Below, piece after piece: positions 14,634 through 30,692 of a stretch of 37,409 nucleotides of DNA. Origin of the DNA: an archaeon HR04. GTDB lineage: Archaea > Thermoproteota > Nitrososphaeria > Nitrososphaerales > Nitrosocaldaceae. Location of the stretch: NCBI GenBank assembly GCA_002898655.1, contig BEHG01000002.1, positions 1-37,409 of the forward strand, read 5' to 3'. Position numbers and translations under genes: made by a program. A model generated the notes under the pieces. It was not told the DNA's origin. It did not search any database and saw only the letters and a list, made by a program, of their open reading frames with translations. Position 1 is the first letter of the stretch. Every line of letters starts with the position of its first letter.

Positions 14634-14742
14634 GCTTGCTAGCAACAGCAGATCTATGCTATAGGGATAAATAAAAGTAAGGTTGAATGCATGGGAATAA
14701 GTTTTTAGATGCATCAATGGCTGTATGTAATGTAGCAATGGC

Positions 14743-14865
14743 GGGGTCGTGGGCTAGCATGGTATTCACTAACTACTTGCTCATGCAGGTAGGTAGGCAA
14801 TGAAACAGAGTGCTTCGAGCCTTGGGCGCTCGAGGTCGCCGGTTCAAATCCGGCCGACCCCACCA
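14743..14865 (+). tRNA. tRNA-Pro (anticodon UGG), intron-containing, CCA encoded
   Basis: The acceptor stem GGGGTCG (14743-14749) pairs with CGACCCC (14855-14861), followed by A73 and a genomic CCA. The T arm is GCCGG-TTCAAAT-CCGGC. The anticodon arm CGAGC-CTTGGGC-GCTCG gives anticodon TGG with G37, as expected for Pro. The D arm begins T-G-GGCT-AGCATGGTA and the matching 3' strand TGCTT is found only after about 46 extra bases, so an intron interrupts the D arm. After removal the D stem pairs G10-T25, G11-C24 and C12-G23, with a T13-T22 mismatch that also occurs in other archaeal tRNA-Pro. There is no direct copy of the 3' end elsewhere in the window. Confidence 0.88.
14766..14811 (+). other. 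Intron in the D arm of tRNA-Pro, about 46 nt
   Basis: The extra segment is 46 nt. Because T flanks both sides it may equally be 14765-14810. It folds into a long hairpin in which CTAACTACTTGC (14769-14780) pairs with GCAGGTAGGTAG (14785-14796), with one mismatch and one wobble and a TCAT loop. TTCA/TGAA adds four more pairs beyond a small bulge. I could not build a canonical bulge-helix-bulge at the required cut sites; outside the intron AGCA/TGCT can pair as an outer helix. A non-canonical position and relaxed motif are known for introns of thermophilic archaea, but the exact boundaries here are inferred from the mature tRNA fold. Confidence 0.65.
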
Positions 14866-15074
14866 GTCATGTAGTCCATTATTATACGGTATGCATAGCA
14901 AGAAGAGGAAAGAGAGCGGGCAGGAGGAAGGAACTCTAGTGACAAAAGTCATCTATCTGTTAGACTGTAGTTCACGTAAACGTTAGGAACCTCAGCCTGG
15001 GTAACTTACCTGCCTATACCTACCTACTTATATACTGTTTAAGCACAATTCTACTTAAGCAGTAGTTGGGCAGG

Positions 15075-15245
15075 CTTACTCTTTATGTTGCACTTAGCGA
15101 GCAGGATAGCAAGAGAGGTTATGAGGTTTACAGGGATGAGGATGTTGATCTAGATCAGCTTGGTATATGGGATGCAAGCATAAAGTGCTTGGAGTGGTAT
15201 AATGGTTATATGCAGCGCAATTGTACCCCCATTATGCAAAGGTAG
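15075..15245 (+). pseudogene. Unidentified open remnant without a start codon
   Basis: A frame open for 56 codons (GYEVYRDEDVDLDQLGIWDAS near its middle) with composition like real coding sequence but no plausible start codon or TATA box. It lies between tRNA-Pro and the alcohol dehydrogenase remnant. I do not recognise the family. It is best read as the tail of a decayed gene. The preceding stretch 14866-15074 shows nothing I can assign. Confidence 0.35.
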
Positions 15246-15258
15246 AGGCTAGACCATT

Positions 15259-15452
15259 CTACAACAGACTTTATCTATCTTCGGTGAGTATCTAGGCAGT
15301 AAGCAGATGGAGATGCTAGAGCTCATACACAAGAATAGGATCAAACCCGTCATAGATAGACTCTTGTGTTAGAGGATGCAGTGCTTGCTCATACAAGGAT
15401 GGAGATGGATCAGCACTTTGGCAAGATAGTGATCAAGGTAGCATCCATCTAA
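15259..15452 (+). pseudogene. C-terminal remnant of a zinc-type (MDR) alcohol dehydrogenase
   Basis: Only the last 60 or so residues of a medium-chain dehydrogenase survive, in two frames. From 15280 one frame reads GEYLGSKQMEMLELIHKN then RIKPVIDRLL and hits TAG. A frame shift near 15365 then continues LEDAVLAHTRMEMDQ, HFGKIVIKVASI and a stop at 15450-15452. The block IKPVIDR...LEDA..AH..M....HFGKIVIKV is the standard end of the MDR alcohol dehydrogenase/quinone reductase family. The catalytic and cofactor-binding parts are gone, so this is a dead fragment. Confidence 0.8.
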
Positions 15453-15557
15453 CTATATCATGGAAATTTTTATAGCGCTTTATCCTAAATTGTAATGATT
15501 TTAGATTACCTATAAAATATTTATAATATCATCAGAGAGAGTAATGTAGAACTGGAT

Positions 15558-16179
15558 ATGAGAAGGGTAACGAGCATAAACATGATTACTATGGCTATAG
15601 TCACGCTAGCAGCATCTATATACACCCAACATATACATATGCAAATGGTTACTCATTCTCTAGCAGAGAAGGGTTGGTAGATGCTATAGGAGAAGCACTA
15701 TCCAACTCCTTTACAGATGAGGAGGTTCAGCAGGCTATAGATGCTATACATAGTGAGTATAACCTACCAGAACAAGGTTCCATTATCATACAGGCAGAGC
15801 AAGGAAACCTATACGCACTTGCATGCATACTACTACATGATCCACCATTAAGAGTGTACAATGCCTTGTACTCTACATGAGCCTAGGCTCCCCAATAACT
15901 ATAGATGATCTACATGTTTATGCAGATGCACCAAGTGGTACAATCAATATACAGAGTTGGAACTGGGCACCAAACACAATACCAGATCCATTCATATGGC
16001 TTGGTTCAATAACCATGAGTGAAGCAGGTACATGGAGCATAGTTGCTGACTTTACCACACAAGGTAGTGTAGTGTTGAGCATACCAGTAACATTCAATGT
16101 TGTTCCAGAGAGTATGATAGGTGCAGTAGGTGTAGTTGGGGGTTCATCTGCAGCAGTTGTGTATAGGAGGAGCAGGTAG
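15558..16179 (+). pseudogene. Frameshifted secreted/surface protein with C-terminal anchor
   Basis: Three frames together make one sensible protein. A signal-peptide-like start (ATG 15558, MITMAIVTLAAS) runs to about 15620. A body in a second frame reads YTYANGYSFSREGLVDAIGE and on to a stop at 15880. A third frame (15877-16179) reads SIVADFTTQGSVVLSIPVTF and ends with a small hydrophobic segment followed by YRRSR, a membrane-anchor tail. The last two frames overlap by ATGA and might be separately translated, but the missing signal peptide on the body and missing anchor on the first part favour a broken gene. No bulge-helix-bulge explains the shifts. The cargo domain is unrecognised; the C-terminal part looks like a beta-sandwich. 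Confidence 0.55.
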
Positions 16180-16207
16180 AGTAAAAGAGATCGATTCAAT
16201 TAATTAC

Positions 16208-16224
16208 TTTTTTATTTTATTACT
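16208..16224 (+). terminator. T-rich transcription stop after the broken surface protein
   Basis: A run of six T followed by ATTTTATTA directly after the plus-strand frame ending at 16179. Archaeal termination typically occurs at such U-rich tracts without a required hairpin. Confidence 0.45.
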
Positions 16225-16264
16225 TTATTTGAATTGATCATTCTTATAACATCCTTCAACTCAT

Positions 16265-16683
16265 CTAGATATCAAACTCATATCTATTGAATAGGTTGAT
16301 CAACTTAACAACTCCCTATTCTCTTGGTTCCTTGTAGACTCCATGAAATCAACCCTGTTTATTACACCCTGAAGGTAATCGTTATGCTTTGCTATCTCAT
16401 TTATTGCATCTGCTAGATTGTTTGGAAGGTTATTTGCATCCTTTGTAACCTCATCCCATAAGTATTTTCTTGGTATATACTCTAATACTCGCTGCTCCAA
16501 CTCCTCTCTATCTGCTCATCACTTAACCCCTTCACATCCTAACCTTTTCTCTCTCATACATAGCCTTATCGCTAAGCCTCTTGAAGAATAGCAAGACAAG
16601 TACGAACTTGTAATCTAAAGCAGTCATTATTATATCTGCTACATCATCAACGAGTTTGATTAGTTCATCTTTACTTATAAAGT
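16265..16683 (-). pseudogene. hsdM: Fragmented type I restriction-modification methyltransferase (HsdM)
   Basis: Pieces of an HsdM-type N6-adenine methyltransferase N-terminal region lie in order but in different frames. First comes VADIIMTALDYKFVLVLLFF followed by KRLSDKAMYEREKVR, matching the family's ADILRGKLDYKFVLLLLFLKRLSD-type block. Next is EELEQRVLEYIPRKYLWDEV and NLADAINEIAKHNDYLQGVI (open 16300-16500). After another shift comes VKLINLFNRYEFDI and a stop at 16265. Several internal stops and frame shifts separate the pieces, and the AdoMet-binding catalytic domain is missing. No hsdR or hsdS is nearby. This is a decayed remnant of a restriction system. Confidence 0.75.
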
Positions 16684-17027
16684 ATTGCAGGCGTCAATTA
16701 GAACGCTTGAACATTATAAGGTTAATAGTATGATATATTAGTTGTAGGACATATCTATTATCTGTTAATCTTCCTTTACCGTTACGAATAGTATACCTTT
16801 TCTCTTACCTTCTCTAATTGAGTAGCATCTAAACTTGAGTGTACTACTTGCAGATCTAGCAATATTCTTCCTAAATTCAGACTACCTTTATTACTGCAAT
16901 TCTCTGCCTCTCTGCATTATTTATATTTGGGTTAAGGTATGATTAGAACATATAGTTGTAGGTTGTTAAATAGTTACCATATTAATTTATTATTATTTCT
17001 AGAAATAGATTTAAACTTATATAAGAT
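16684..17027. other. Gene-free AT-rich stretch
   Basis: 344 nt between the hsdM remnant and the ParB-like gene. On the minus strand a 38-codon open stretch (16765-16881, containing FRCYSIREGKRKGILFVTVK) looks like eroded coding sequence but has no start and no recognisable family. The rest (16900-17027) is very AT-rich with nothing I can assign. Confidence 0.4.
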
Positions 17028-17891
17028 TTATAAATCATGTTTGGCCTTTATCACATCATCTATAAGGTTGTGTACAGTCAATCTGATATGCATGAGGGTG
17101 TTTGTAATACTTATAGCATCATTGGGCTCAAGTGTCTTCTTTGTCTCCTCCATGAGGGAATCTAACCTGTAGAGTGTGAGTTTTAGTGCTATTATAGTCT
17201 TCTTGAGTATGCGTATCTTCTTTTCATTTATGTAAGTTCGTTTATCGATGTAAGACTCTTCAAAGGATTCCAACTTCTTCAACTCTCTTACAGCCTTCAC
17301 AGATAGTCTATCCTGTATTATAGCATTGACCATCTTTTCTTGCATAGAAGGGCTTAGATTGACCAGTTCCAATGCATGGCTTACACTCAGCCTACCTTTG
17401 TTGATCTCTTGCTTTATACTCTCTGGCAGCCTTAGTAGTTGTATCCTATGGGATACATACTCCTCACTCTTTCCTATACACTTTGCTAATTCAGTAACAC
17501 CACCCCAGCCATATTCCATGACGTACTTACTGAATGCCTCAGCCTCCTCTATTGGGTCTAACGTTTGTCTTTGAATATTCTCTACCAACTGTACCTCATA
17601 CGCCTCTTTATCATTCAACTCCTTTATTATACATGGTATGGTTCTCCATCTCAAAGACTTGCATGCTTGAAGCCTCCTATGCCCTGCTACCACCTCAAGG
17701 TAATCCTCGACTGGTCTGACTAGGATGGGCTGGAGTAGTCCATGTTGCTGTATACTAGAGGCTAGTTCCTTTATCTTGCTAATCTCAAGTTCAGTACTAT
17801 GCCTGATCGAGTACCTTGATGTCTTTATAAGCCTTATCTCAACATTCTCTACTACCGAATCAGCTAGCCTATTCTCTAACTCTTTATACAT
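17028..17891 (-). CDS. ParB/Spo0J-like DNA-binding protein (orphan)
   Basis: 287 residues when started at ATG 17891. The frame also opens 24 codons earlier (17963), but that part overlaps a good TATA box (TTTATATA, 17913-17920) placed about 26 nt before 17891, so a nearly leaderless start at 17891 is preferred. The ParB N-terminal domain includes the GHRR motif (about 70-73) and ENIQRQTLDPIEEA (about 104-117). A central helix-turn-helix follows (about 131-151, ELAKCIGKSEEYVSHRIQLL), then a helical C-terminus. ParB proteins bind centromere-like sites and, in the classical family, hydrolyse CTP through the GxxR region. No ParA ATPase is beside it, so it may be a plasmid or element leftover, or an independent nucleoid/transcription factor. 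Confidence 0.88.
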   Translation of the reverse strand: MYKELENRLADSVVENVEIRLIKTSRYSIRHSTELEISKIKELASSIQQHGLLQPILVRPVEDYLEVVAGHRRLQACKSLRWRTIPCIIKELNDKEAYEVQLVENIQRQTLDPIEEAEAFSKYVMEYGWGGVTELAKCIGKSEEYVSHRIQLLRLPESIKQEINKGRLSVSHALELVNLSPSMQEKMVNAIIQDRLSVKAVRELKKLESFEESYIDKRTYINEKKIRILKKTIIALKLTLYRLDSLMEETKKTLEPNDAISITNTLMHIRLTVHNLIDDVIKAKHDL

Positions 17892-18128
17892 ATTACTTCT
17901 ACTATTAATCAGTATATAAAACTTTTTATTTTTTATAACCCCTAAATAAATACTAGAATTCATATTAACTCAATAACGTAGTATATTTATTTTAAACATT
18001 CACTCTACTAGGAACTAGTTTTAGTTACCATACTCTATGTTATCATAGCATGGAAAGTTAGCAGAATATTCATTACTCAATATGATTAAAAAGGTTAATA
18101 AGATCAAAGCAGTAAATGATATGTATCT

Positions 18129-18662
18129 ATGAGAGTACTCATAGCAGAGGATGAGATAGATACTGCGATACAATATAAGATAGCATTAGAGGAAAGGAAT
18201 CATGAGGTTATGTTAGCTATGGATGGAGAAGCATGTATCAGATTATATAAGGAAGAATTAAGGAGACATGCATACTATAAGCAGGATGAAGTAAACAGGC
18301 CTATACATAATGAATGTCTTAATCCTGCTGTATTTGATGTAGTTGTACTTGATTATAGAATGCCAAAGGAGAACGGTATGAACGTTGCAAAAGAGATATT
18401 GATGTTGAATCCACAACAAAGGATAATATTTGCATCAGCATATGTCAAAGAGACTCTCTTCGATTCTATCAAACAACTTAGGCATGTGGTAGAACTCATA
18501 CAGAAACCATTCGAGTTAGATGCACTAATCAATATGATTGAGGATGAAACATCATATAAGAAACTCCAGGAGTTGAATGAGTACCTTAAAGAGTTGAATG
18601 AGTTTGATCTTACACAGGAGCAGGTAAAGGATTTGTTGGATAATATAGAAAGGTTAAGATGA
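18129..18662 (+). CDS. Single-domain response regulator
   Basis: A CheY-like receiver of 177 residues. The acidic pocket is Glu7-Asp8 (AEDE), the phosphoacceptor Asp lies in VVLDYRMP near residue 75, a Thr/Ser position is replaced by the ASAYV segment, and the conserved Lys is in IQKPFE near 121. An insertion of about 25 residues lies between helix 2 and strand 3 (EELRRHAYYKQDEVNRPIHN). There is no DNA-binding output domain; a helical tail follows (about 135-177). A TATA-like GATTAAAAAG at 18084-18093 lies upstream. It converges on the transporter-kinase fusion gene with only 22 nt between them, which makes that kinase the likely partner. Confidence 0.92.
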   Translation: MRVLIAEDEIDTAIQYKIALEERNHEVMLAMDGEACIRLYKEELRRHAYYKQDEVNRPIHNECLNPAVFDVVVLDYRMPKENGMNVAKEILMLNPQQRIIFASAYVKETLFDSIKQLRHVVELIQKPFELDALINMIEDETSYKKLQELNEYLKELNEFDLTQEQVKDLLDNIERLR

Positions 18663-18684
18663 TTAGATAACATCTATTATTAGA

Positions 18685-21444
18685 TCATAAACACTTGGTG
18701 CTATCGAATGGGAGTGTTATTATGAATGTTGCACCACCCCTATCATTGTTATATGCAGTTATCTCTCCCTTATGCGCATTAACTATAGCCCTGCTTATGA
18801 ACAGACCTAATCCAACACCATATTGATTACCGTCATGTATGCTCTTTGTAACGAACTTCTCAAATAGAACAGGAAGAAGATCTTCTGGTATACCTCCTCC
18901 AGTATCACTTATGCTTATCTCTATCCTCTCCTTGTTCTTTAATACCATGCTCTCTATACTTATCTCACCATACTTTGTGAACTTTATTGCATTATCCAGT
19001 ATGTTTGTTATAACCTGATTGATTCTTATCTTATCAATATATACTTCTACATTCTCATCAAGCCTGACATTTAATGACACCTCATTGTTAATATTTGGTC
19101 TTAGAGTATTTATAACATCCATTATTATATCATTTATCCTTACCTTCTCCATGTGCAGTACAAGATTCCCGCTCTCTATCCTGCTTACATCGAGTATCTC
19201 ATTTGTGAGATGTTGTAGCCTCTTTGCATGTCTGAGTATACCATCCCAAGCAGTATCTGGATCTATCTTACCTTTCCTTGCTAAGCTTACAAACCCTAGG
19301 ATAGGTTGTATTGGGGTTCTAAGTTCATGTGATGCTATACTTATGAACTCATCCTTCAGCCTATCCTTACGCTTCAACTCTGCATTAGCCAACTCCAACT
19401 CTCTAGTCCTTATCTCAACCAACTTTGAGAGCTTGATGTTAAGCATTATAACTATGACTGCGAATCCTCCTATTACACCTAATAGGCTGTAGATGAACAC
19501 TAGAATATGTTCTGCTACATCTTTATTCTTCTCTTCTATGGATGAGTATAACATGATAGATGTTATTATTGCTACTGCCATTATCGCTGCTAATACTGTT
19601 GGTATTATAATATTCTTCCAGACGTGCATTATCCTACTCCTCTCCTCTACCAATGGTAGTACTATTATTACGATAGATGCTACGCTAGCCCATATAATTG
19701 CTATAGTAACCCATACATAGTATATCGCTTCAGAGAATATATAGTTGGAGAAGTACAAAGGTAGAGGCCATGCAACAACCAAGGCTAGTGTTATTGCTAC
19801 TGCATATCTATAGGTGAACCGCCTAGCCTTCTCTAAGAATGCCTCATCTTTATCCTCAAGCAATGATCTTATTTTATCATCAACAATCTTTATCCTTCTC
19901 CTCAATACGCTGAAATCAAATCTCTCTGGTCTTAGAATGCTATAGATAAGTGATATAATAGCACTAACAGATAAGGATGTGATGTTTCCAAGCAAAAGAG
20001 GTATACTCTGTCCTGTAGAAGATACCGAGATCTCTCCATACAATATATTTGCTGAGTAGAGCCAGATTGATACACCACATACAAGGCCTAGTATGGCACC
20101 CAACGTTACTGCCATCTTGTTTGCTCGCTTAGATAGTATAGATAAGGCTATAGGTACTACAGCAGAGCTTATCAGTATACCCATCGAGAGGTATACGTAT
20201 TGGAGATTAACCCCTAGTTGAAGCAATAGGGATGCTAGTATCCCTATCCCTATACCAAATGCTATTATCACTATCCTTGATATCTTTATCAGTTCCTTAC
20301 CTGTTGCTGTCCTTTTGATATACGTCCTATAGATATCGTATGTTACTAGAGATGATACCGCTATGAGTTCAGCAGAGCCAGCAGATGTTACTGCCATAAA
20401 CAGCATCGTCAGGAGAAGTATTGCACCCACATCGCCCAGTATATGTGATGCTGCCATTGGTGCTGCTAACCCAGCACCTACATCTGCTTGGCTGAGTGTA
20501 ATACCTGTTGCAACGGCAGTCAAGCCTAGCGTAGTTGCCAGAGTGAATGGTATGGCGAACCATGCTAACCCTCCAAGTAGGAACCCCTTTGCTGCGGCCC
20601 TTGGTTCTGCTGCTATGGCCCTCTGCCAGTAGGCCTGATCAACGAACACTGTACCAAAGTTCCCGACTATGTTTATTATGCCAAAGATGAGTGCACCAGT
20701 GGAAGCCATCGTTAGATATGAACCAGAAGCATTGCCCTCTACAGGTCTTAGTATTGATGCTGATGTTAATTTATTATACATGCCTGTTATACCACCTATC
20801 TCTGGGTTCATGAAGTAGATGACTGTAACAAATATCAGTAGAACTATGAATATTAGCGTTGCATTAAAGTAATCTGCCAAGAATGTCGCCTTTAGGCCCC
20901 CAAAGAATGTATATATGATTACCCCAAAGGGTATAAGCATTGCTGCTATGTATATGTTAACGCCAGTTAGAGCATGCACAGCAGCTGCACCACCAAGCAC
21001 TAGCATTGCAGTGACTATGATATTTGTCATTAACGCAAAGAAGAGGAATATCTTGTGCGTATTACTCCCAAATCGAGCATGTATGATCTCTGGGAACGTA
21101 TGTGCTGTTGGAGCCTTTTTCTTCAGTTCTATGACAAGTATGGCAAACAGGACTATCTGTATGCTTGCACCAGCAGCGTACCAGAATGGTCCACTTATGC
21201 CGAATTGATATGCAACTGTTGAGGATTGGAGTAGTGTTGCAGCCCACGTCCATGCAGATACTACAGATGCTGCAACTAGCCCACTCTTTATATTCCTCCC
21301 TGCTGTAGAGAACCATTCAGATGTAACCTTTGTTCCCAACCATTTGAACTCTGCCTTGATGAGCAGTGTGACTATAAGTGCCATTATAGAACCAAGTCCA
21401 ATTAGTATAAAGTATCCTACGCTTTCAGATAGTATTGAGACCAT
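18685..21444 (-). CDS. Sodium:solute symporter-histidine kinase fusion (CbrA-like)
   Basis: 919 residues. About 1-500 is an SSS-family permease with some 13 hydrophobic segments. Four further membrane helices (about 540-670) precede a coiled stretch (RTRELELANAELKRKDRLKD). A HisKA domain has phosphoacceptor His706 in FISIASHELRTPIQP. The HATPase domain has an N box (NILDNAIKF), a G1 box (DTGGGIP) and a G2 box (GVGLGLF). This architecture is like bacterial CbrA, where transport and signalling are joined. The gene is divergent from the urea channel, next to the urease cluster, and convergent with a receiver protein. SSS members include the DUR3 urea transporters, so urea is a reasonable candidate ligand, but the substrate is inferred from context only. 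Both transport and kinase motifs look intact. Confidence 0.93.
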   Translation of the reverse strand: MVSILSESVGYFILIGLGSIMALIVTLLIKAEFKWLGTKVTSEWFSTAGRNIKSGLVAASVVSAWTWAATLLQSSTVAYQFGISGPFWYAAGASIQIVLFAILVIELKKKAPTAHTFPEIIHARFGSNTHKIFLFFALMTNIIVTAMLVLGGAAAVHALTGVNIYIAAMLIPFGVIIYTFFGGLKATFLADYFNATLIFIVLLIFVTVIYFMNPEIGGITGMYNKLTSASILRPVEGNASGSYLTMASTGALIFGIINIVGNFGTVFVDQAYWQRAIAAEPRAAAKGFLLGGLAWFAIPFTLATTLGLTAVATGITLSQADVGAGLAAPMAASHILGDVGAILLLTMLFMAVTSAGSAELIAVSSLVTYDIYRTYIKRTATGKELIKISRIVIIAFGIGIGILASLLLQLGVNLQYVYLSMGILISSAVVPIALSILSKRANKMAVTLGAILGLVCGVSIWLYSANILYGEISVSSTGQSIPLLLGNITSLSVSAIISLIYSILRPERFDFSVLRRRIKIVDDKIRSLLEDKDEAFLEKARRFTYRYAVAITLALVVAWPLPLYFSNYIFSEAIYYVWVTIAIIWASVASIVIIVLPLVEERSRIMHVWKNIIIPTVLAAIMAVAIITSIMLYSSIEEKNKDVAEHILVFIYSLLGVIGGFAVIVIMLNIKLSKLVEIRTRELELANAELKRKDRLKDEFISIASHELRTPIQPILGFVSLARKGKIDPDTAWDGILRHAKRLQHLTNEILDVSRIESGNLVLHMEKVRINDIIMDVINTLRPNINNEVSLNVRLDENVEVYIDKIRINQVITNILDNAIKFTKYGEISIESMVLKNKERIEISISDTGGGIPEDLLPVLFEKFVTKSIHDGNQYGVGLGLFISRAIVNAHKGEITAYNNDRGGATFIITLPFDSTKCL

Positions 21445-21647
21445 ATCTTATTCTTATACCATCTATCTATAAAGATTATTTTGAATGTTACATCCAATGG
21501 CAATATAACATCTTCCTGTATTATAATACATCATATTTTCTAGCATCTTCATATACTAATACCAATTATAAAAGATCATTTTAGTATGTTATAAATTAAA
21601 TCCCAATATTTTAAAAAGAATTAAACTACCTTGTAATTCATTACTAT
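21445..21647. promoter_or_regulatory. Divergent promoter region between transporter-kinase and urea channel
   Basis: A 203-nt AT-rich spacer between two start codons facing apart. On the minus strand TTTATAGATA (about 21467-21476) sits about 26 nt from the kinase start, fitting a leaderless mRNA. On the plus strand there are two TATA-like elements, TTATAAATTA (21589-21598) and ATTTTAAAAAG (about 21608-21617), the latter about 30 nt before the urea channel ATG. Co-regulation of urea uptake and sensing from this spacer is plausible. Confidence 0.55.
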
Positions 21648-22811
21648 ATGGCAGGAACATGTTGTCCTAGCTACAGTACTGGAGACCCTCTACTGGACTT
21701 CTTCTACATACTCTTCAATGGAATATCTGAAGTACCATTGTTCAGTTCACCAGTGAATGGGATATTGATACTTGCGGGTGTATTGCTGGCATCGTGGAGG
21801 GCAGGTGTTATGATGGTCATAGCAGGCTTGGTAGGCGCAGGGATGGCATTGATGATGGGTGCACCGTACGATCTAGTAACGTTCGGGCTCTTTGGATACA
21901 ACTCCATCCTTACTGGAATGGCGTTCTGGTCTGGTCCATTCGTTAAATCCAATCATGCAACATTCTGGATATCCATATTTGGTGCTGCATGGACAGCTGT
22001 ATCATGGATGGCATTTGCACATGTGATGGGTGACTGGTTTGTACTAGGAGGACAAGGTTGGGCAATACCCGGATTCACGTCATCCTTCATATTCACAACA
22101 TGGGCAATAATGCTTGCAACTAAAAGATTTGGCCATAACATCTGGCCAGCCCCAGCCCAGAAAGAACCTATAGTTGCTGCAGTTGCTAGTGGTACAAGTG
22201 TAAATCAATTGATGTCTGATAGTAGTAACCCTGAGCCTGAACACTCATTCAAATGGACACCAAAAGAATTCATGATAGCAGTGCTTAACGGTGTATCACA
22301 GGTAACGTTCGTAGAGAACTGGAAGACTGGTATATTCTGGGTAGTAGGACTTACATTGTCATTTGAGTTACTCTCTGCTACATATACTACTCCAGATGGC
22401 ACATTGACTGTATCAAGGTTGTTTACAAACGCATATACAACACAATGGGATCCAACATCACCTCTCTACCTAGCAGGATTGATGGCACTTATCGGCTCTG
22501 CCATAGGTGCAGGGATGGCTATACTGCAAAGGTTACCTACAAGCGAGATAAGGATGGGGTTACATGGATTCAACCAAGTACTTGTTATGATAGCATTGAC
22601 GAGTTTTGTACCATTGACATGGCAGACCTTCCTCTACGCTGTCTTGGCAACTATAGCATGTTCATTCATGATGCCTGCATTCCAGAACCTGTTTGGAAGA
22701 TGGGGTCTTCCTGCATTGACCGGCCCATTTGTATTCACAGCATGGATATTCTTACTTGCTCTTGCAGGGTTCCAGTATATACCAGCAGGGATAGGATGGG
22801 CAAGGCCTTAG
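21648..22811 (+). CDS. Urea channel/transporter, UT family
   Basis: 387 residues with about ten hydrophobic segments in two similar halves, as in UT-type urea channels. GYNSILTGMAFW in the first half and GLHGFNQVLVMIALTSF in the second are the matching pore-lining blocks. A polar loop between the halves (about 170-205) is rich in Pro, Ser and Glu. The family moves urea down its gradient through the cytoplasmic membrane. It lies 141 nt upstream of ureA on the same strand, with a T-rich stop signal between, and is divergent from the SSS-kinase fusion. It is complete, with an ATG start. Confidence 0.92.
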   Translation: MAGTCCPSYSTGDPLLDFFYILFNGISEVPLFSSPVNGILILAGVLLASWRAGVMMVIAGLVGAGMALMMGAPYDLVTFGLFGYNSILTGMAFWSGPFVKSNHATFWISIFGAAWTAVSWMAFAHVMGDWFVLGGQGWAIPGFTSSFIFTTWAIMLATKRFGHNIWPAPAQKEPIVAAVASGTSVNQLMSDSSNPEPEHSFKWTPKEFMIAVLNGVSQVTFVENWKTGIFWVVGLTLSFELLSATYTTPDGTLTVSRLFTNAYTTQWDPTSPLYLAGLMALIGSAIGAGMAILQRLPTSEIRMGLHGFNQVLVMIALTSFVPLTWQTFLYAVLATIACSFMMPAFQNLFGRWGLPALTGPFVFTAWIFLLALAGFQYIPAGIGWARP

Positions 22812-22849
22812 CAGAGAGGATGCACACCCAAGCAAACTAGATAAACTTA

Positions 22850-22855
22850 TTTTTT
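22850..22855 (+). terminator. T-tract after the urea channel gene
   Basis: Six consecutive T about 40 nt after the stop codon at 22811, before a fresh TATA-like element for ureA. It suggests that the channel and the urease genes can be transcribed separately. Confidence 0.4.
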
Positions 22856-22952
22856 GTAGACATCGACTAAATCACTGCAAGTTAACTTATATTAATTCTT
22901 ACTAAAAATTCTAAAATATTTGCCTGATAATTATCCTATAGAGCTGATTAGT

Positions 22953-23255
22953 ATGATGTTAGCACCAAGAGAAATAGAAAAGATGTTGATATGGACAGCT
23001 GCACAGATTGCAGCACAACGCAAGAGCAGAGGCTTGAAGTTGAACTATGTGGAGGCAGTTGCATACATAGCCAATTACGTTGTAGAAGGGGCGAGAGAGG
23101 GCAAGAGCGTAGCACAGCTTATGAAGGAGGCAAAGACTATTCTAAAGAAGAATGATGTGATGGATGGGGTAGCAGATATGATCCATACAGTACAGGTGGA
23201 GGCAACATTCCCAGATGGTACAAAGTTGGTGACTGTACATGACCCAATACAGTAG
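22953..23255 (+). CDS. ureA: Urease subunit gamma
   Basis: The 100-residue gamma subunit of nickel urease. It starts at ATG 22953 (or the following ATG), giving [12 protein letters not shown], the normal family beginning. The upstream TTG at 22920 is rejected because it adds an unrelated 11 residues and overlaps a TATA-like CTAAAATA (22911-22918). The block [14 protein letters not shown] in the middle and the end [18 protein letters not shown] are typical. UreA packs with UreB and UreC into the (UreABC)3 core in the cytoplasm. It is three bases from the ribosome-binding region of ureB. Confidence 0.96.
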
Positions 23256-23270
23256 GAGGTGGCTGCGAGT

Positions 23271-23639
23271 ATGAAACCAGGAGAATACATACTCGCTGCA
23301 GAGCCTGTTGTATGCAATCAGGGTAGGAATACTGTTAAGGTGACTGTGAAGAATACTGGCGATAGACCTATACAGGTTGGTTCTCATACGCACTTCTTTG
23401 AAGTGAATAGAGCATTGGAGTTCCCAAGGGAGAAGGCATTTGGTTACAGGCTTAACATACCTGCAGGCACAGCAGTTAGGTTCGAGCCAGGAGATACAAG
23501 GGAGGTGGAGTTGGTGGAGTTTGGAGGCAAGAAGGTGTTCTATGGATGTGGTGGCTTGACGATGGGTAGCACAACATCTAGCGTAGTAAAGAGGATGGCT
23601 TTGGAGAAGGCTAGGATGAGAGGCTACAAGGGGGCATGA
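23271..23639 (+). CDS. ureB: Urease subunit beta
   Basis: A 122-residue beta subunit beginning MKPGEYILA at ATG 23271. A strong Shine-Dalgarno AGGAGGTG (23254-23261) ends about 10 nt before this ATG. A GTG at 23259 is in frame but lies inside that ribosome-binding site, so it is rejected. Typical blocks are [20 protein letters not shown] and [16 protein letters not shown]. It forms the urease core with UreA and UreC. It is separated from ureA by 15 nt and from ureC by 9 nt, in a tight operon. Confidence 0.96.
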
Positions 23640-23648
23640 GGTGAGAGC

Positions 23649-25376
23649 ATGGTTCTCAAGTTAACTAGAAAGCAATACACAGAACTATATGGTCCTAGCA
23701 AGGGTGATAGGGTTAGGTTAGGAGATACAGACATAATAGTAGAAGTTGAGAAGGATCTGATAGCCCCAGGGGATGAGTGTGTATTTGGAGGAGGTAAGAC
23801 GCTGAGGGACGGTTTGGCACAGACACCAGGCGTTACAAATTCACATGGTGCACTGGATCATGTGATAACCAATGCGTTGATACTTGATCCCATTCTAGGC
23901 ATAGTCAAGGCAGATATAGGCATAAAGGATGGGAAGATAGCAGGGATAGGGAAGGCTGGCAATCCATACATAATGGATGATGTAGATCCTAACATGGTTG
24001 TTTCTGCATGCACAGAGGCTACTGCAGGAGAACATACGATATGTACACCAGGTCATATAGATACGCATATACACTTCATATGCCCACAGCTTTACATAGA
24101 GGCTATAAGTGCTGGCACAACTACACTCATAGGAGGAGGCACTGGTCCTGCAGATGGCACAAATGCTACTACATGCACTCCTGGAGTATTCAACATAAGC
24201 AGGATGCTTGAGGCTGTGGAGGACTTTCCAGTAAACTTTGGGTTCCTAGGCAAGGGTAACGATTCTCATCCTTCCCTTGCAACACAGCTGGAGCAGATAG
24301 ATGCTGGTGCAATAGGCACAAAGATACATGAGGATTGGGGCACTACACCAGCAGTCATAGATGCAGCACTTAGAGCAGCAGATATGACAGATACTCAAGT
24401 AGCTATACACACAGATACACTTAACGAATGTGGTTATGTTGAAGATACCATAAACGCAATAGATGGGAGAACTATACATACGTATCATACAGAGGGTGCT
24501 GGAGGGGGTCATGCACCAGATATAATGAAGATAGCAGCAGAGGAGTTTGCATTACCATCATCAACAAACCCAACTAGGCCATACACTGTAAACACTGTTG
24601 ATGAGCATCTAGACATGCTTATGTTCTGCCACCATCTTAACCCTGCAGTACCAGAGGATGTTGCGTTTGCAGAGTCAAGGATAAGGGCTGAGACAATAGC
24701 AGCAGAGGATGTGCTTCATGATGAAGGAGTACTGAGCATGTACTCATCTGATAGCCAAGCAATGGGTAGGATAGGAGAGGTAACACTAAGAGCATGGCAG
24801 ACTGCAGATAAGATGAAGAAGATGAGAGGTAAGCTGAAGGAAGATTCTGTAGATAACGATAACTTCAGAGCAAAAAGGTACATAGCAAAGACAACTATAA
24901 ACTGTGCAAGGACTCATGGTATAGCAGATTATGTAGGCTCATTAGAGCCAGGTAAATACGCTGATATAGTTATGTATCCTATACCATTCTTTCCAGCAAA
25001 GCCAAAGATGGTATTCAAGGGAGGGTTCATAGCATGGTCTATAATGGGTGATCCAAACGCATCAATACCAACACCTGAGCCCGTCTTCTATAGACCTATG
25101 TTTGGTGCATTTGGTAGAGCCGTGAAGAATACAAGCTTCACATTCGTATCGAAGAGGGCAATGGAGTTGGGTGTGAAGAACAGGCTTGGGTTGGAGAAGA
25201 TAGTCCTTCCAGTTAGGAACTGTAGGAACATAAGCAAGAAGGATATGGCATGGAACTCTAGCACCCCAAAGATAGAGATAGATCCAGAGACGTATGAGGT
25301 GAAGATAGATGGTAAGATAGCAACTGTAGAGCCAGCCAAGGAGCTAGCGTTAGCACAAAGGTACTTCATATCATGA
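23649..25376 (+). CDS. ureC: Urease subunit alpha (catalytic)
   Basis: The catalytic subunit, which hydrolyses urea to ammonia and carbamate at a bi-nickel site. 575 residues, full length. Nickel ligands are present: HIDTHIHF (about 134-141), the Lys225 to be carbamylated in GTKIHEDWG, later His residues in AIHTDTLNE and [15 protein letters not shown], and Asp in SSDSQAMGR. The mobile flap Cys327-His328-His329 is MFCHHL rather than the common MVCHHL. The C-terminus [10 protein letters not shown] matches the family end. The start ATG at 23649 follows GAGGTGAGAG, a good ribosome-binding site. It is followed by a T-rich tract and the chaperonin gene. Confidence 0.97.
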
Positions 25377-25426
25377 TAACGCAAGTGCGTAGCAGATAAT
25401 AAGATAAGGTGTATAAGAACCAAAAT

Positions 25427-25440
25427 CTTTTTTTATTTTA
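25427..25440 (+). promoter_or_regulatory. T-rich tract: stop for ureABC and possible promoter for chaperonin genes
   Basis: Seven T, an A, then TTTTA between ureC and the chaperonin gene. It could end ureABC transcription. TTTATTTTA lies about 25 nt before ATG 25460 and could also serve as a weak TATA element for a second unit comprising chaperonin and accessory genes. Confidence 0.4.
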
Positions 25441-25459
25441 ATTTCATCACTCCTATAAG

Positions 25460-27010
25460 ATGACAAATACAAACGTATGGCGTCCTATGGCACAGAACAT
25501 AGAATTCGATGCATTAGAGTCTAACGTTAATGCTGTTATAGCAGTGGCAGATACCGTAAGAACTACACTTGGTCCAAAGGGATTAGATAAACTGCTAATA
25601 GATCAGGCAATGAATAGGCATGTATCCAATGATGGTGTAACCATACTACTATCGTTGAAGACCATACACCCCGTTGCAAGAATGGTTGTGGAGATCGCAG
25701 AGAGGCAGGAGCAGTTGGTTGGTGACGGTACTACTACTGCAGTGGTCATGGCTGCAGAGATGGTTAAGGAAGGGAAGAGGCTTATAAAGGAACTAGGTGT
25801 GCACCCAACCAAGGTTGTTGAGGGTATAGAGAGTGGTGTATACTATGCATGTGAGTTGCTAGAGAAAGTAGCAAGGAAGATATCAATCGATGATGTAGAG
25901 TTGGAGTATGTAGTTAACACGTCATTAGCATCGAAATTGGATGGTAAGAGACTTGCATCTATAGTAATATCTGCAATAAGAGCTGTAGGCAATAACGCAT
26001 CCTATAATGGTTCATACGATTTTGATAAATCAATAAAGATCGTGAGAAGAATGAATATGGATGATAAAGTGATCTCTGGCCTGATACTTGAAAGGGGTAG
26101 ATTGGATAAGGATCTACCGTTAGAGATAAGGGACGCAAGGATACTTGTATGCAAGCTCGATCTCAAGCCTGTGAAGGAGTCATGGCTCAAGGAGAATAGT
26201 AGATACGAAGACATCCTTACCATGGAGAAGGATAGGGTAACAAAGGCAAAGGAGATAGTAGATGCTATGCTAGCAACGGGGGCAAATGTTATACTCATAG
26301 CATCGCCTGAGATAGATGATGCTGTAGAGAATCTGTTGATAAGTAGAAGGGTATTCACTGCAATAATCTCTACCGATGAAATAGAGCATGTAGCACGTTA
26401 TACTGGAGCCAAGCCTGTAAGGCTTATGGATGATCTTAAGCTCCCAGATATCCTTGGTTATGCAGATAGAGTCTATGAAGATGAGGATAATAATATAATA
26501 TACATAGAGAATGGCAAGAATAAGAACATAGTCACAATAATAGTCTCTGGTACAACTAAGGAGACATCGCTGGAGCGATGGAGGGCTGCTAGGGATGGAG
26601 TTAATGCCGCAGAGGCTGCGCTGAACAATGGCGTTGTTGTTGGTGGAGGTGCTGCAGAGTTACATGTAATAGATAAGATGAAGGGTTTGAAGTTGAAGGG
26701 TTTAGAGCAGGTTGGGGTAGATGTTGTTGCAGCAGCACTGGAGAGCATAATGAGGCAGATACTCACCAACGCTGGCTTCAATGGGCTAGAGAAGGTCATG
26801 ACTGCAAAGGCATTGCCAGATACCTTTGGTATAGATATAAACACTGGCGAGCCAATAGATATGATGGAGGCAGGTGTACTGGACCCACTGCTGGTAAAGA
26901 CAACTGCTCTAAAGGCTGCTGGTGAGATAGCAAAGGCAGTGCTGAGGATAGATAGGAACCTTGCTGCAGAGGACCTCAGCCAACAAGCGATATCAGAGAG
27001 TAGGAGGTGA
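25460..27010 (+). CDS. Thermosome-like group II chaperonin subunit inside the urease cluster
   Basis: 516 residues of the TCP-1/thermosome family, which folds proteins in a two-ring ATP-driven chamber. ATP-site motifs are present: TLGPKG (36-41), SNDGVTIL (56-63), GDGTTT (88-93), an Asp near 377 (RAARDG) and GVVVGGGAAE near 391. The last carries Val where most members have Pro (VVPGGG). The protein is divergent from housekeeping thermosomes, is slightly shorter (usual about 540-550), and lacks the Gly/Met-rich C-terminal tail, ending AISESRR. It lies between ureC and the accessory genes ureE-ureF-ureG-ureD on the same strand. A dedicated role in urease assembly is a hypothesis from position only. 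Confidence 0.92.
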   Translation: MTNTNVWRPMAQNIEFDALESNVNAVIAVADTVRTTLGPKGLDKLLIDQAMNRHVSNDGVTILLSLKTIHPVARMVVEIAERQEQLVGDGTTTAVVMAAEMVKEGKRLIKELGVHPTKVVEGIESGVYYACELLEKVARKISIDDVELEYVVNTSLASKLDGKRLASIVISAIRAVGNNASYNGSYDFDKSIKIVRRMNMDDKVISGLILERGRLDKDLPLEIRDARILVCKLDLKPVKESWLKENSRYEDILTMEKDRVTKAKEIVDAMLATGANVILIASPEIDDAVENLLISRRVFTAIISTDEIEHVARYTGAKPVRLMDDLKLPDILGYADRVYEDEDNNIIYIENGKNKNIVTIIVSGTTKETSLERWRAARDGVNAAEAALNNGVVVGGGAAELHVIDKMKGLKLKGLEQVGVDVVAAALESIMRQILTNAGFNGLEKVMTAKALPDTFGIDINTGEPIDMMEAGVLDPLLVKTTALKAAGEIAKAVLRIDRNLAAEDLSQQAISESRR

Positions 27011-27019
27011 AAGAAAGAG

Positions 27020-27379
27020 TTGCTTATACGTCATTGTGTAGAAGAATCAAATGTTGATGAAAATATGTATGTTATAGATCCTAGCAGGATAAAACATGTT
27101 ACAATAGTTGCAGGTAAGATAGCAGCCATGTCAGGTTACATAGATCCTTTAACCCATCTTAACCTTGACTATCCTTACCATAAAGTAACAATATGTGTTA
27201 TAGCAGAGAGGTTTGAGATAGGCGCAAGGGTGAAGTTCAGCAACAGTGGTCTATTATTTGCATTTGTAGATAGACATGCATACAAGCATTATGGATTAAT
27301 AGATAGTACACAAAGGATGCTCGATATGCATGATGCTGTTAAGAGGTTAAAGGAAGCAAGGGTGAGCAAGAAGGTATGA
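27020..27379 (+). CDS. Unknown protein in the urease accessory operon, up to 119 aa
   Basis: I do not recognise the family. It is a small soluble alpha/beta protein with VTIVAGKIAAMSGYIDP, YHKVTICVIAERFEIGARVK and a His-rich tract DRHAYKHYGL. It can start at TTG 27020 or at ATG 27065 (MYVIDPSRIKHV); the latter would give 104 residues and leaves a clean 54-nt gap from the chaperonin. The stop codon overlaps the ureE start (ATGA), so translation is coupled to the nickel chaperone. Placement between the chaperonin and ureE suggests a role in urease maturation. Confidence 0.7.
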   Translation: MLIRHCVEESNVDENMYVIDPSRIKHVTIVAGKIAAMSGYIDPLTHLNLDYPYHKVTICVIAERFEIGARVKFSNSGLLFAFVDRHAYKHYGLIDSTQRMLDMHDAVKRLKEARVSKKV

Positions 27380-27900
27380 GTACTAGCATACAGATCAGTT
27401 CAATAATAGGCAATATAAAGAGGGATAGCATTCTTAGAGCACGGTATGAAGAGATGTCAAGACAAGGGTTATGTGAGATCGTGAAGATAAACAGGATAGA
27501 GTCAGAGAGAGTGAGGATGCGCAAAGTAACGGATAAGGGTAGCGATGTGATCATAACATTACCTCAAGGTTCTAGATTAAGACACGGGGATGTAATTCAT
27601 CTATCTAATGAGAGGATGGTAGTTGTAGAACTAGAGGAAGAAAACCTTGCAATGATAAAGATAAAGGACGATACTCCTGTAGATCATGTTGTGGAGATTG
27701 CTGTTAGGGTAGGGCATACGATAGGAAACTTGCATAGGCCTATAAAGGTTGAAGATAGGAGCGTTTACTTCCCTATACAGGCTGATACCGAGATGGAGAT
27801 GATAAAGAGACTGCTTAATCCTATACTTGACCATCTTGTGATTGAGAAGACAAGGATGGTATTTGAACCAGAAGAAGGAGTTGAGGTACATGAGCACTGA
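27376..27900 (+). CDS. ureE: Urease accessory protein UreE (nickel metallochaperone)
   Basis: 174 residues. An N-terminal peptide-binding beta domain contains VIITLPQGSRLRHGDVI (58-74). The C-terminal nickel-binding domain contains the signature GHTIGNLHRPIKVE (113-126). The tail ends HEH, a short version of the His-rich nickel tail. UreE carries Ni to UreG during activation of urease. It starts with ATG overlapping the preceding stop codon and overlaps ureF by 11 nt at its end. Confidence 0.94.
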   Translation: MSTSIQISSIIGNIKRDSILRARYEEMSRQGLCEIVKINRIESERVRMRKVTDKGSDVIITLPQGSRLRHGDVIHLSNERMVVVELEEENLAMIKIKDDTPVDHVVEIAVRVGHTIGNLHRPIKVEDRSVYFPIQADTEMEMIKRLLNPILDHLVIEKTRMVFEPEEGVEVHEH

Positions 27901-28690
27901 TGTGGGAGAGAAGATTAGTAGTAGTAAAGCATACAATCGTGTAAAGAGTAATAATTATGATGATAATGTAATAGATGCAATAGGTGTAGAAGATATAAGC
28001 ATTATGCAGTTAGCCGATTCCTTCTTTCCAACTGGTATGTATACAACATCAAACGGGTTAGAGATGTTCTTTTATAATAAGAGGGTGAAGAATGTGGAGC
28101 ATCTTAAGAATCTATTGAGTGTATTCCTGAAGCAGCAGATAGGTCCTGCGGATTGTGTAGCATTTGGTAATGCATATCAGGCTGCTAAGGATTCAGATTT
28201 AGCTAGGCTAATAGAGATAGATAATACAATATTTGCTATGAGGCTTATAAAGGAGATAAGAGAAGCATCTGTAAGATCTGGTATACAACTAATAAGATGC
28301 TTGAATCAAATAGTTAGTAATAAGATGCCAAATAATAATGTTCACTCTATATTAGAGTCGTATGATAACGCAGTAAGGTCTAAGAAGGCAAACGGTGTAT
28401 ACCCAGTAGCCTTAGCAGTAGCGTGCAACATGTTTGGTATACCAAAGCCTAAGGCTGGACTCATACTGCTATACTCCTTCTCCATAAGCGTAATAGGTGC
28501 AGCATTGAGGCTAGGTATGTTAAATCACTTTCAAGGACAGATTATAGTAGATGAGCTTAAGCCATTGATGGTCTCTATTGTGAAGGAGAATATAGATAAG
28601 CCATTATCGAGCATGTGGCAGTTTGCACCAGAGGTAGATATTGTGCAGATGATGCACGAGAGACTTGCTACGAAAATGTTTATAACTTGA
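27890..28690 (+). CDS. ureF: Urease accessory protein UreF
   Basis: 266 residues from ATG 27890 (MSTDVGEKISSSK). An open frame from 27842 exists but lies inside ureE, and the ATG at 27890 has GTTGAGGT in front of it. The all-helical UreF pattern is clear: QLADSFFPTGMYTTSNGLE, QIGPADCVAFGNAYQAA and YPVALAVACNMFGI. UreF forms the UreD-UreF-UreG complex that controls GTPase-driven nickel insertion. A 30-residue polar N-terminal extension precedes the conserved part. Confidence 0.94.
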   Translation: MSTDVGEKISSSKAYNRVKSNNYDDNVIDAIGVEDISIMQLADSFFPTGMYTTSNGLEMFFYNKRVKNVEHLKNLLSVFLKQQIGPADCVAFGNAYQAAKDSDLARLIEIDNTIFAMRLIKEIREASVRSGIQLIRCLNQIVSNKMPNNNVHSILESYDNAVRSKKANGVYPVALAVACNMFGIPKPKAGLILLYSFSISVIGAALRLGMLNHFQGQIIVDELKPLMVSIVKENIDKPLSSMWQFAPEVDIVQMMHERLATKMFIT

Positions 28691-28698
28691 GAGCATAG

Positions 28699-29364
28699 AT
28701 GATGTTACATATGAGTGGTAAGAGAATACCCAGGTTAGGAGTAGGTGGTCCAGTAGGTTCTGGTAAGACCATGCTCATAGAAAGGATAGTACCAATACTA
28801 GCAGCAAAGGGTTACAAGATAGGTATAATATCTAACGATGTTGTATCCAAGGAGGATGCGGAGAGGATGCGTAGACATCTGGCCAAGGAGATGGGTATAA
28901 TGCCAGAGGAGCTTGTGATAGGGGTAGCAACAGGAGGATGCCCACACACTGCAATACGTGAGGACCCTTCAATGAACCTTGCTATAGTGGAGGAGTTGGA
29001 GAACAAGTACCCCTATCTTGATCTCATAATAATAGAGAGTGGAGGAGATAATATAACAACTACGTTTAGCCCAGCACTTGCAGATTACTTCATATACATA
29101 GTTGATGTCTCTGCTGGAGACAAGTATCCTAGGAAGAGAGGGTTAGGGATAGAGACATCGGATCTGCTTGTTATAAATAAGGTGGATCTTGCTCCATATG
29201 TTGGTGCAGATCTTAGTATAATGGAGAGGGATGCAAGGATTGTGAGAGGGAATAAGCCATTCGTGTTCACCAACTGCAAGACTGGTGAAGGGATAGATAA
29301 GGTTGTAGAGTATATAGTAAGAGATGTGCTATTTGAGGCACAACCAAAGCCAATCACTAGATAA
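28699..29364 (+). CDS. ureG: Urease accessory GTPase UreG
   Basis: 221 residues, a SIMIBI-class GTPase that powers nickel delivery. P-loop GGPVGSGKT (16-24), the invariant metal-binding Cys-Pro-His motif in TGGCPHTAIRED (about 77-88), IIESGGDN as switch/G3 region, and NKVDLA for guanine recognition. It starts at ATG 28699 with several in-frame ATG codons close by (28702, 28711). It is nine bases after ureF. All catalytic motifs are intact. Confidence 0.97.
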   Translation: MMLHMSGKRIPRLGVGGPVGSGKTMLIERIVPILAAKGYKIGIISNDVVSKEDAERMRRHLAKEMGIMPEELVIGVATGGCPHTAIREDPSMNLAIVEELENKYPYLDLIIIESGGDNITTTFSPALADYFIYIVDVSAGDKYPRKRGLGIETSDLLVINKVDLAPYVGADLSIMERDARIVRGNKPFVFTNCKTGEGIDKVVEYIVRDVLFEAQPKPITR

Positions 29365-29421
29365 GCTAATGATTTAGATTCAATTAATTTAATATTAGAA
29401 ATAAGATTAATTTATGCATAT

Positions 29422-30456
29422 ATGTATGTTAGGCATGGTAATGGTATGAACAGTGATGATGTGAAAGTTATCGGCAATAGTAACGATAAGGACATCCCTA
29501 CTGCTAACTATCCCGATGCTATAGATTACACAAACATAAAGTTCTACACACCTGACGATATACCATCTGAAGTGTTGGCATATGAAGCAAGGCTAGCACA
29601 GCTAGATGTGGGCAGATCTGGGAAGACAGGCCTACTTTACTTGATGCTTGAGAGCGATCCCAGCACTGGTAGAACTGTGATAAAGGAAAAGTTCTCAAAA
29701 GTACCATTAGTTGTACTTAAGGCTATGTATCTTGAGGAGTCACTACCAGAGATGGCATATATATACATCATGTCTCCATCGGGAGGAATACTGCAAGGCG
29801 ACAGGTACAGGGTGGATATAATACTGAGGAATAAAGCAATGCTACATGTAACAACCCAAGGCGCAACTAGAATATACAGGATGAATAGGAATTATGCTAC
29901 GCAGATGGTTAACATTTATGTAGATGAAGATTGCTACATGGAATATATACCTGATCAGATAATTCCTTACAGAGATTCACGTTTCTATCAGAAGATTAAC
30001 TTGAATGTTCATGAACATGCTACTTTAGTATACTCTGAGATAATAGTACCTGGAAGGGTTGCACGGAATGAAGCATTCCAGTATGATATATGTTATATGA
30101 AGACCATAGCAAGGAACCAGTATGGTAATGTAAGGTTCATGGATAATGTAGTCCTGGAACCAAAGAAGAATAACCTTAAGACAATGGGTATACTAGATGA
30201 GCATGATGTGGTTGGAAGCATCTACATAATAACTAGAGCAGAGTATGTTAATGCTATAAGTGAAGAGGTCAATGCTACAATTAAGCACTTTGCTAATGTG
30301 GTTGGAGGAGCATCCATACTACCCTATGACTCTGGTGTAATTGTTAGGCTGTTAGGTAACATAGCAGATGATATAAGAGGTTTTGTGTATGAAGTGGTTA
30401 GAATAGTTAGAAGAGTTGTTCTTAATGCTAGGTTCAGTGGTATAAGGAAGGGTTAA
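29422..30456 (+). CDS. ureD: Urease accessory protein UreD (UreH)
   Basis: 344 residues. UreD blocks are visible: YIMSPSGGILQGDRYRVDI, LHVTTQGATRIYRM, YIPDQIIPYRDSRFYQKIN and SEIIVPGRVARNEAF. UreD contacts the urease core and joins it to UreF and UreG, with an internal tunnel for nickel transfer. The gene follows ureG after a 57-nt AT-rich gap, so a small internal promoter is possible. A 45-residue polar N-terminal extension precedes the conserved domain. It closes the urease accessory set: E, F, G and D are all present. Confidence 0.95.
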   Translation: MYVRHGNGMNSDDVKVIGNSNDKDIPTANYPDAIDYTNIKFYTPDDIPSEVLAYEARLAQLDVGRSGKTGLLYLMLESDPSTGRTVIKEKFSKVPLVVLKAMYLEESLPEMAYIYIMSPSGGILQGDRYRVDIILRNKAMLHVTTQGATRIYRMNRNYATQMVNIYVDEDCYMEYIPDQIIPYRDSRFYQKINLNVHEHATLVYSEIIVPGRVARNEAFQYDICYMKTIARNQYGNVRFMDNVVLEPKKNNLKTMGILDEHDVVGSIYIITRAEYVNAISEEVNATIKHFANVVGGASILPYDSGVIVRLLGNIADDIRGFVYEVVRIVRRVVLNARFSGIRKG

Positions 30457-30499
30457 CTCCTATAACTATCTTCTATAGTGTTTCATCTGAACGTAGTAT

Positions 30500-30646
30500 C
30501 TATCCCCTTTCAATTACGAACTCGATTACTTTTATAGTATGGCCAGTCTGTTCTGCATGTTCTTCTGCAACTTGCAGGATATCGAATACTGCATCGCAAT
30601 CATTACACCATATCGCACAACTCTTTTTATACCTCTTAACACTCAT
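30500..30646 (-). CDS. Tiny C2H2 zinc-finger protein, 48 aa
   Basis: From ATG 30646 the product is 48 residues with CNDCDAVFDILQVAEEHAEQ then TGH, that is C-x2-C-x12-H-x5-H, a single C2H2 finger. The frame stays open up to 30766, but that extension overlaps the upstream gene (30693-31283) in another frame and covers an AT-rich TATA-like region, so the short form is preferred. Single-finger proteins of this size are frequent in thaumarchaea and presumably bind nucleic acid or protein. The specific role is unknown. Confidence 0.7.
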   Translation of the reverse strand: MSVKRYKKSCAIWCNDCDAVFDILQVAEEHAEQTGHTIKVIEFVIERG

Positions 30647-30692
30647 GTACTCGTATATATTACACAGGAGTGGTATAATAATGTTAACATTA

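Follow-up and report, generated by a model that had tools for sequence, protein, structure and literature searches.

A DUR3 urea transporter fused to a histidine kinase in the urease island of Nitrosocaldus: a candidate urea sensor

Can a single archaeal protein both import urea and report its presence? The question is raised by a gene encoding 919 aa that lies on the reverse strand (18685-21444) of the window – the whole stretch of 37,409 nucleotides analyzed here – from the genome of a Ca. Nitrosocaldus (G000; 1.21 Mb in 142 contigs, ~68% complete), a thermophile among the ammonia-oxidizing archaea (AOA). An earlier note, made from the letters of this DNA alone, had read the gene as an SSS permease fused to a complete histidine kinase, convergent with a single-domain response regulator and divergent from a UT urea channel plus urease, and had pointed to the urea-carrying DUR3 type as a possible identity for the SSS part. 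Each of these points was borne out. The open reading frame (ORF) carries SSF (residues 45-453, 90 bits), HisKA (697-759) and HATPase_c (804-914) domains in Pfam, with the kinase boxes intact; its stop codon faces that of the receiver gene (18129-18662, +) across a gap of 22 bp (18663-18684), and 203 bp (21445-21647) separate it from the UT gene (21648-22811, +). A frame of identical length (919 aa, 91-92% identity) with the same neighbors is found in two other genomes, and a chance or misassembled fusion was rejected because one open frame recurs in three genomes. We consider it probable that the fusion is a urea transceptor kinase, in which the DUR3 domain binds urea, very probably still imports it, and signals via the kinase.

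The SSS part of the fusion is specifically DUR3. In a search of all PDB sequences the plant DUR3s were the best matches to this domain (residues 1-605; 19630-21444, -): residues 3-608 align with Arabidopsis DUR3 (9j7c) at 616 bits (E ~1e-183), with vSGLT, SGLT1 and choline carriers far behind, at 1e-10 and weaker. A structural model of the whole fusion (mean predicted local distance difference test score, pLDDT, of 85.7) gave the same answer. The inward-open and urea-bound structures of Arabidopsis DUR3 ranked first in the fold search (TM-score 0.84-0.90, target-normalized), and the C-terminal part of the model matched HK853-type kinases. An SSS protein of another substrate class was considered and rejected on the PDB sequence scores and the fold ranking; the grouping with carriers of unrelated substrates, against which the earlier note had cautioned, was not found.

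The state of the domain as a carrier was judged from 122 DUR3-invariant columns, each at least 97% invariant among 65 non-kinase DUR3 domains from AOA, Bacillota and two plants (the row labeled OsDUR3 in the alignment and tree is maize DUR3, 9vim). The window's domain keeps 120 of these positions, departing at P378R and W438S, and the fusions of two Nitrosocaldus relatives depart at two and three; the deviating positions in these three proteins are 378, 389 and 438. In the kinase-fused DUR3s of Nitrosopumilaceae, 16 (L034) and 14 (L035) of the 122 positions are lost, including T66, Q96, H115 and E119, which are kept in other DUR3s. Because two to three invariant positions have been lost in the one case and 14-16 in the other, the Nitrosocaldus domain looks like a working carrier, whereas those of L034 and L035 may not be, and these latter proteins are perhaps a sensor-only form. 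The Nitrosocaldus protein could itself be of this kind, its DUR3 domain binding urea and driving the kinase but no longer transporting, with the adjoining UT supplying the urea. Ks-Amt5 provides a precedent relative to the Amt carriers (PMC5764959), and the Nitrosopumilaceae proteins, which do not stand beside urease, have lost invariant positions as a sensor-only protein might. Nevertheless, we judge this reading unlikely for Nitrosocaldus, where the DUR3 core is retained and where the single-contig genome G001 (1.58 Mb), which has the urease locus, encodes no DUR3 besides the fusion.

The kinase half is equally complete. By motif inspection the phospho-acceptor H706 lies in SHELRTP within HisKA (19168-19356, -), and HATPase_c (18703-19035, -) has its N (809-822), G1 (847-853), F (860-864) and G2 (876-882) boxes. 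The receiver (177 aa) has E7/D8, the phospho-acceptor D75 (18351-18353), S103 and K126 in alignment. Response_reg is its sole Pfam domain, it is modeled as a receiver fold to which two C-terminal helices are added, and its fold matches are receivers; as the earlier note had stated, no DNA-binding domain was found in it by Pfam, model or fold matching. Both halves of the fusion are under purifying selection: the ratio of nonsynonymous to synonymous substitution rates (dN/dS) is ~0.08-0.10 in the DUR3 and kinase parts alike, and 0.03-0.12 throughout fusion and receiver.

Where the kinase and receiver come from is evident from their nearest kin. The kinase part is closest to AOA kinases that stand alone (51-61% identity over ~240 aa for the best), and the receiver to other receivers from AOA (46-61% identity); these kinases and receivers adjoin each other and face end to end, in the manner seen in the window, in 16 of 19 distinct pairs (three Nitrosocaldus pairs included). 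The inputs of the other kinases are PAS-like, HAMP/four-helix or Cache. This kinship indicates that DUR3 became fused to a tail-to-tail signaling cassette that already existed, and is widespread, in AOA; together with the facing arrangement, it makes the adjacent receiver very likely the cognate partner of the fusion kinase. Regulators of the REC-only type make up 77% of thaumarchaeal regulators in a published census, the text of which mentions no transporter-kinase (PMC5847659).

The two halves are connected by residues 606-703 (19336-19629, -). Hydropathy shows two added hydrophobic stretches (~612-630 and ~647-665), which would form an extra transmembrane hairpin (~612-665); in the model a single unbroken helix (638-723) runs from the second of these, via the signaling helix, into the H706-bearing helix of the dimerization and histidine phosphotransfer (DHp) domain. 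Neither STAC, PAS nor HAMP was found in the linker by Pfam and PDB matching (STAC being without a dedicated profile), and residues 602-758 of the model contain no beta strands, consistent with the lack of a Pfam PAS match. The membrane part is thus the only evident input, since no other sensory domain was found. Linkers similar to that of the fusion occur in L034 and L035 (26-36% identity, E ~1e-5) and in almost no other member of the local ORF set. Kinases of the same class are joined elsewhere to PAS-like, Cache or four-helix sensors, as befits a promiscuous module, and DUR3 and kinase might for this reason be fused yet independent, the kinase answering another input; with linker, DUR3 and kinase all strongly constrained (linker dN/dS 0.03-0.09), and a similar linker in the second DUR3-kinase group, such a lack of coupling is very improbable. 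Two Arabidopsis DUR3 structure entries are described as dimeric, and a dimeric DUR3 would suit a dimeric kinase.

The association with urea use was followed through seven genomes of Nitrosocaldaceae (G000, G001, G018, G030, G039 and G055, plus G047 from another genus). Fusion, receiver, ParB-like gene (see below) and true urease alpha co-occur in G000, G001 and G018; all four are absent from three other genomes of the genus that are 91-98% complete (G030, G039 and G055), and are likewise missing from G047, where a 25-bit urease match in a 455-aa frame is taken as another amidohydrolase. The earlier note had allowed that the pair might prove unconserved near urea genes; instead, three genomes have both pair and urease and three relatives have neither. 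The genes form an island (approximately 15-31 kb of the window). In G039 the genes that border it, those for M24 peptidase and DUF1512 at one end and for sulfite/nitrite reductase at the other, are all found within ~4 kb, with one unrelated gene between them; a comparison of 14739-31283 with L158 shows the island missing as one block from a close relative, its flanking genes being ~4 kb apart. The urease island is, on this comparison, gained or lost as one block, and the fusion-receiver pair therefore belongs to the urea module. Ca. N. cavascurensis, for which two urea transporters are published, grows on urea (PMC5797428).

Membership of the island also bears on what the kinase reports. The signal might be the transporter's own state or the energization of the membrane (proton/sodium or osmotic conditions), with urea merely the cargo: ionic strength is the reported stimulus of PrlS, also an SSS-kinase (PMC7918813), and CbrA can signal without its SLC5 domain (PMC9100948). 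The presence of the gene in the urease island, its loss together with that island and the lack of an extra sensory domain in the fusion all tell against a signal other than urea, which we think improbable.

How, then, would a urea transceptor kinase work? We infer the following series of events. Urea would be bound by the DUR3 domain or carried inward by it, and the cycle of binding or transport would shift the C-terminal transmembrane hairpin together with the continuous helix that leads into DHp. This shift would alter autophosphorylation at H706, from which the phosphoryl group would pass to D75 of the tail-to-tail receiver. Having no DNA-binding domain, the receiver must work by protein contact, possibly with the adjacent ParB-like DNA-binding protein, and the output would be an adjusted use of the UT/urease locus. 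The ParB-like protein appears the best candidate effector because it is a DNA-binding neighbor and follows one clade of DUR3s – those fused to kinases or to universal-stress-protein (USP) domains – across AOA.

Several points weigh against the transceptor reading. The SLC5 domain of CbrA is reported to be non-essential for signal perception (PMC9100948), and sensing therefore need not reside in a transporter that is fused to a kinase; CbrA, however, has a PAS domain and the Nitrosocaldus fusion has none. Ks-Amt5 senses ammonium without transporting it (PMC5764959), and sensing and transport thus need not go together. The hairpin-linker is modeled with moderate confidence, pLDDT being just 63-76 for most of the stretch. 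The similarities of kinases and receivers run in parallel (Spearman 0.71 for all pairs, 0.63 for the window's row), but the correlation is confounded by species relatedness. Finally, because the whole island moves as a block, co-absence with urease is not independent evidence for each gene.

The remaining genes of the locus complete the picture of a urea module. Beyond the divergent promoter region, in which blocks at both ends are conserved in three Nitrosocaldus genomes, the UT-type channel (387 aa; PF03253, 178 bits) is followed by urease gamma, beta and alpha (22920-25376, +; gamma, assigned by Pfam, at 22920-23255, and alpha assigned by search), a thermosome-like chaperonin (25460-27010, +) and the accessory genes UreE, UreF, UreG and UreD (27376-30456, +; domain searches). 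A thermosome-like gene in the urease cluster has already been described for Nitrosocaldus and Nitrososphaerales (PMC5797428). On the other side the ParB-like gene (17028-17963, -; ParB_N and HTH_ParB in Pfam) is divergent from the receiver; a comparison of the fusion/UT and ParB/receiver promoters for a common operator yielded nothing beyond an AT-rich 7-mer. Between the M24 peptidase and ParB lies a small ORF of 100 aa (15877-16179, +), the product of which ends in PESMIGAVGVVGGSSAAVVYRRSR, a C-terminus reminiscent of a membrane or sorting tail. After the ParB-like gene of G001 comes a large gene without counterpart in the window (L032:14801-17695, +), and ~65-70 kb separate the island from its second flank, which may reflect the insertion of a mobile element near the ParB-like gene there. 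The published genome of Ca. N. cavascurensis reports integrative and conjugative elements. Several AOA genomes have, besides the normal urease gamma, a second, diverged gamma-like frame (42-51 bits; G009:C1:277254-277517, G140:C6, G088:C26 and G164:C1).

The history of the fusion can be placed within that of DUR3 across AOA. The tree falls into two clades, one of plain DUR3 (support 87) and one of kinase fusions plus USP fusions (support 97), with Nitrosocaldus as the first branch of the latter (support 91), in agreement with the position of Nitrosocaldus in published species trees (PMC5797428). In the USP fusions the C-terminal place of the Nitrosocaldus kinase is taken by a universal-stress-protein domain (Pfam Usp, 71 bits); such proteins occur in soil and marine AOA (L005:1018-3336, -; L037; L064; L108; ~59 ORFs in other loci). 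The DUR3-kinases of Nitrosopumilaceae (L034:8352-11096, +; L035:3871-6540, -) have a different kinase and no adjoining receiver or urease. The two DUR3-kinase groups share 26% identity in their kinases and have linkers that look related, and the approximately unbiased (AU) test of a single origin gave p = 0.42. A search of 72,556 plasmid records at 80% coverage yielded no DUR3-kinase fusion. In the rest of the phylum sample DUR3 was confined to AOA of the same order, and a scan of the genome collection, judged by ORF class, turned up plain DUR3 alone, in Bacillota. The literature searched on AOA DUR3 and on Nitrosocaldus contains no mention of a kinase or USP fusion.

Neighboring genes differ between the clades. 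Only DUR3 loci of distinct sequence that had flanks of 1.5 kb or more were tallied, and a neighbor is here a gene within 2.5 kb; as the sampled organisms are related, the tallies are counts and not independent events. A ParB-like neighbor was found at 15 of 17 DUR3-USP loci, three of four DUR3-kinase loci (all three of them Nitrosocaldus) and none of 47 plain DUR3 loci; for an Lrp/AsnC-type regulator (LrpA match 6e-8) the corresponding numbers are 15 of 17, none of four and one of 47. No clear orthologue of the Lrp-like regulator was found in Nitrosocaldaceae, the matches there being at the family level only (~20-24 bits). In Nitrosocaldus the receiver occupies the place between ParB and DUR3 that is held elsewhere by the Lrp-like gene, although ParB and DUR3 follow each other in a different order there. 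A broader scheme, which we put forward tentatively and consider rather unlikely, is that one DUR3 lineage of AOA would combine urea transport with regulation, by means of a cytosolic module that can be exchanged (mostly USP, the cassette kinase in Nitrosocaldus and another kinase in some Nitrosopumilaceae). It would signal urea to a ParB-like protein recruited as transcriptional regulator of the urease locus, via an Lrp-like factor in the USP form or a phosphorylated receiver in the kinase form.

Comparison with known systems shows which parts of this arrangement are familiar. With the DUR3 urea/proton symporters of Arabidopsis (9j7c, 9j7d, 9x5u) and maize (9vim) the fusion shares the same domain end to end (3-608), the same fold and nearly all invariant positions, but none of the plant and bacterial DUR3s sampled has a kinase. 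The DUR3-USP proteins found in other AOA, which probably correspond to the 'copy 2' DUR3 of PMC10753782, belong to the same clade and share the ParB-like neighbor and urease neighborhood; they differ in having a C-terminal USP rather than a kinase, and an Lrp-like regulator rather than a receiver. The tail-to-tail HisKA kinase/receiver cassettes of AOA are alike in sequence (46-61% identity) and in forming facing pairs, but their inputs are not DUR3.

Among transporter-kinases, the closest in plan are the SLC5/STAC kinases CbrA, CrbS/MxtR and RpuS, in which an SSS-family transporter likewise lies N-terminal to a HisKA kinase; CbrA both transports histidine and signals (PMC7096432, PMC7918813, PMC13022988). 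The fusion differs in its SSS subfamily, in its linker (a transmembrane hairpin and a direct helix) and in its regulator, CbrB and CrbR having the DNA-binding domain that the receiver lacks. Membership in the STAC/CbrA type was rejected: STAC, PAS and a DNA-binding regulator were searched for and not found, and the fusion therefore stands outside that family. Ks-Amt5, from an anammox bacterium (PMC5764959), is similar in that a transporter for a nitrogen substrate is fused directly to a kinase, without HAMP, in an ammonium-dependent organism. It is of the Amt family, however, and unrelated to the SSS/DUR3 domain, which is not an Amt/Rh domain; moreover, Ks-Amt5 lacks transport activity and has no receiver assigned to it, whereas the fusion has an adjacent receiver and a seemingly intact transporter core.

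The literature searched, which lies mostly outside subscription papers, yielded no description of a DUR3-kinase or of a urea transceptor kinase. AOA are major nitrifiers, many living partly on urea, and how this use of urea is controlled is, according to a 2025 study, not clear (PMC12686405); a DUR3-kinase with an adjoining receiver is a concrete candidate for a urea sensor, and the USP-fused relatives carry the question to abundant marine and soil groups. Annotation as a mere 'SSS urea transporter' hides the signaling half of the protein. Transporter-kinases as such are already known, from the SLC5/STAC proteins (CbrA, CrbS, RpuS) and Ks-Amt5; beside these the Nitrosocaldus fusion, if our reading is true, would be the first urea-specific transporter-kinase within the literature searched.

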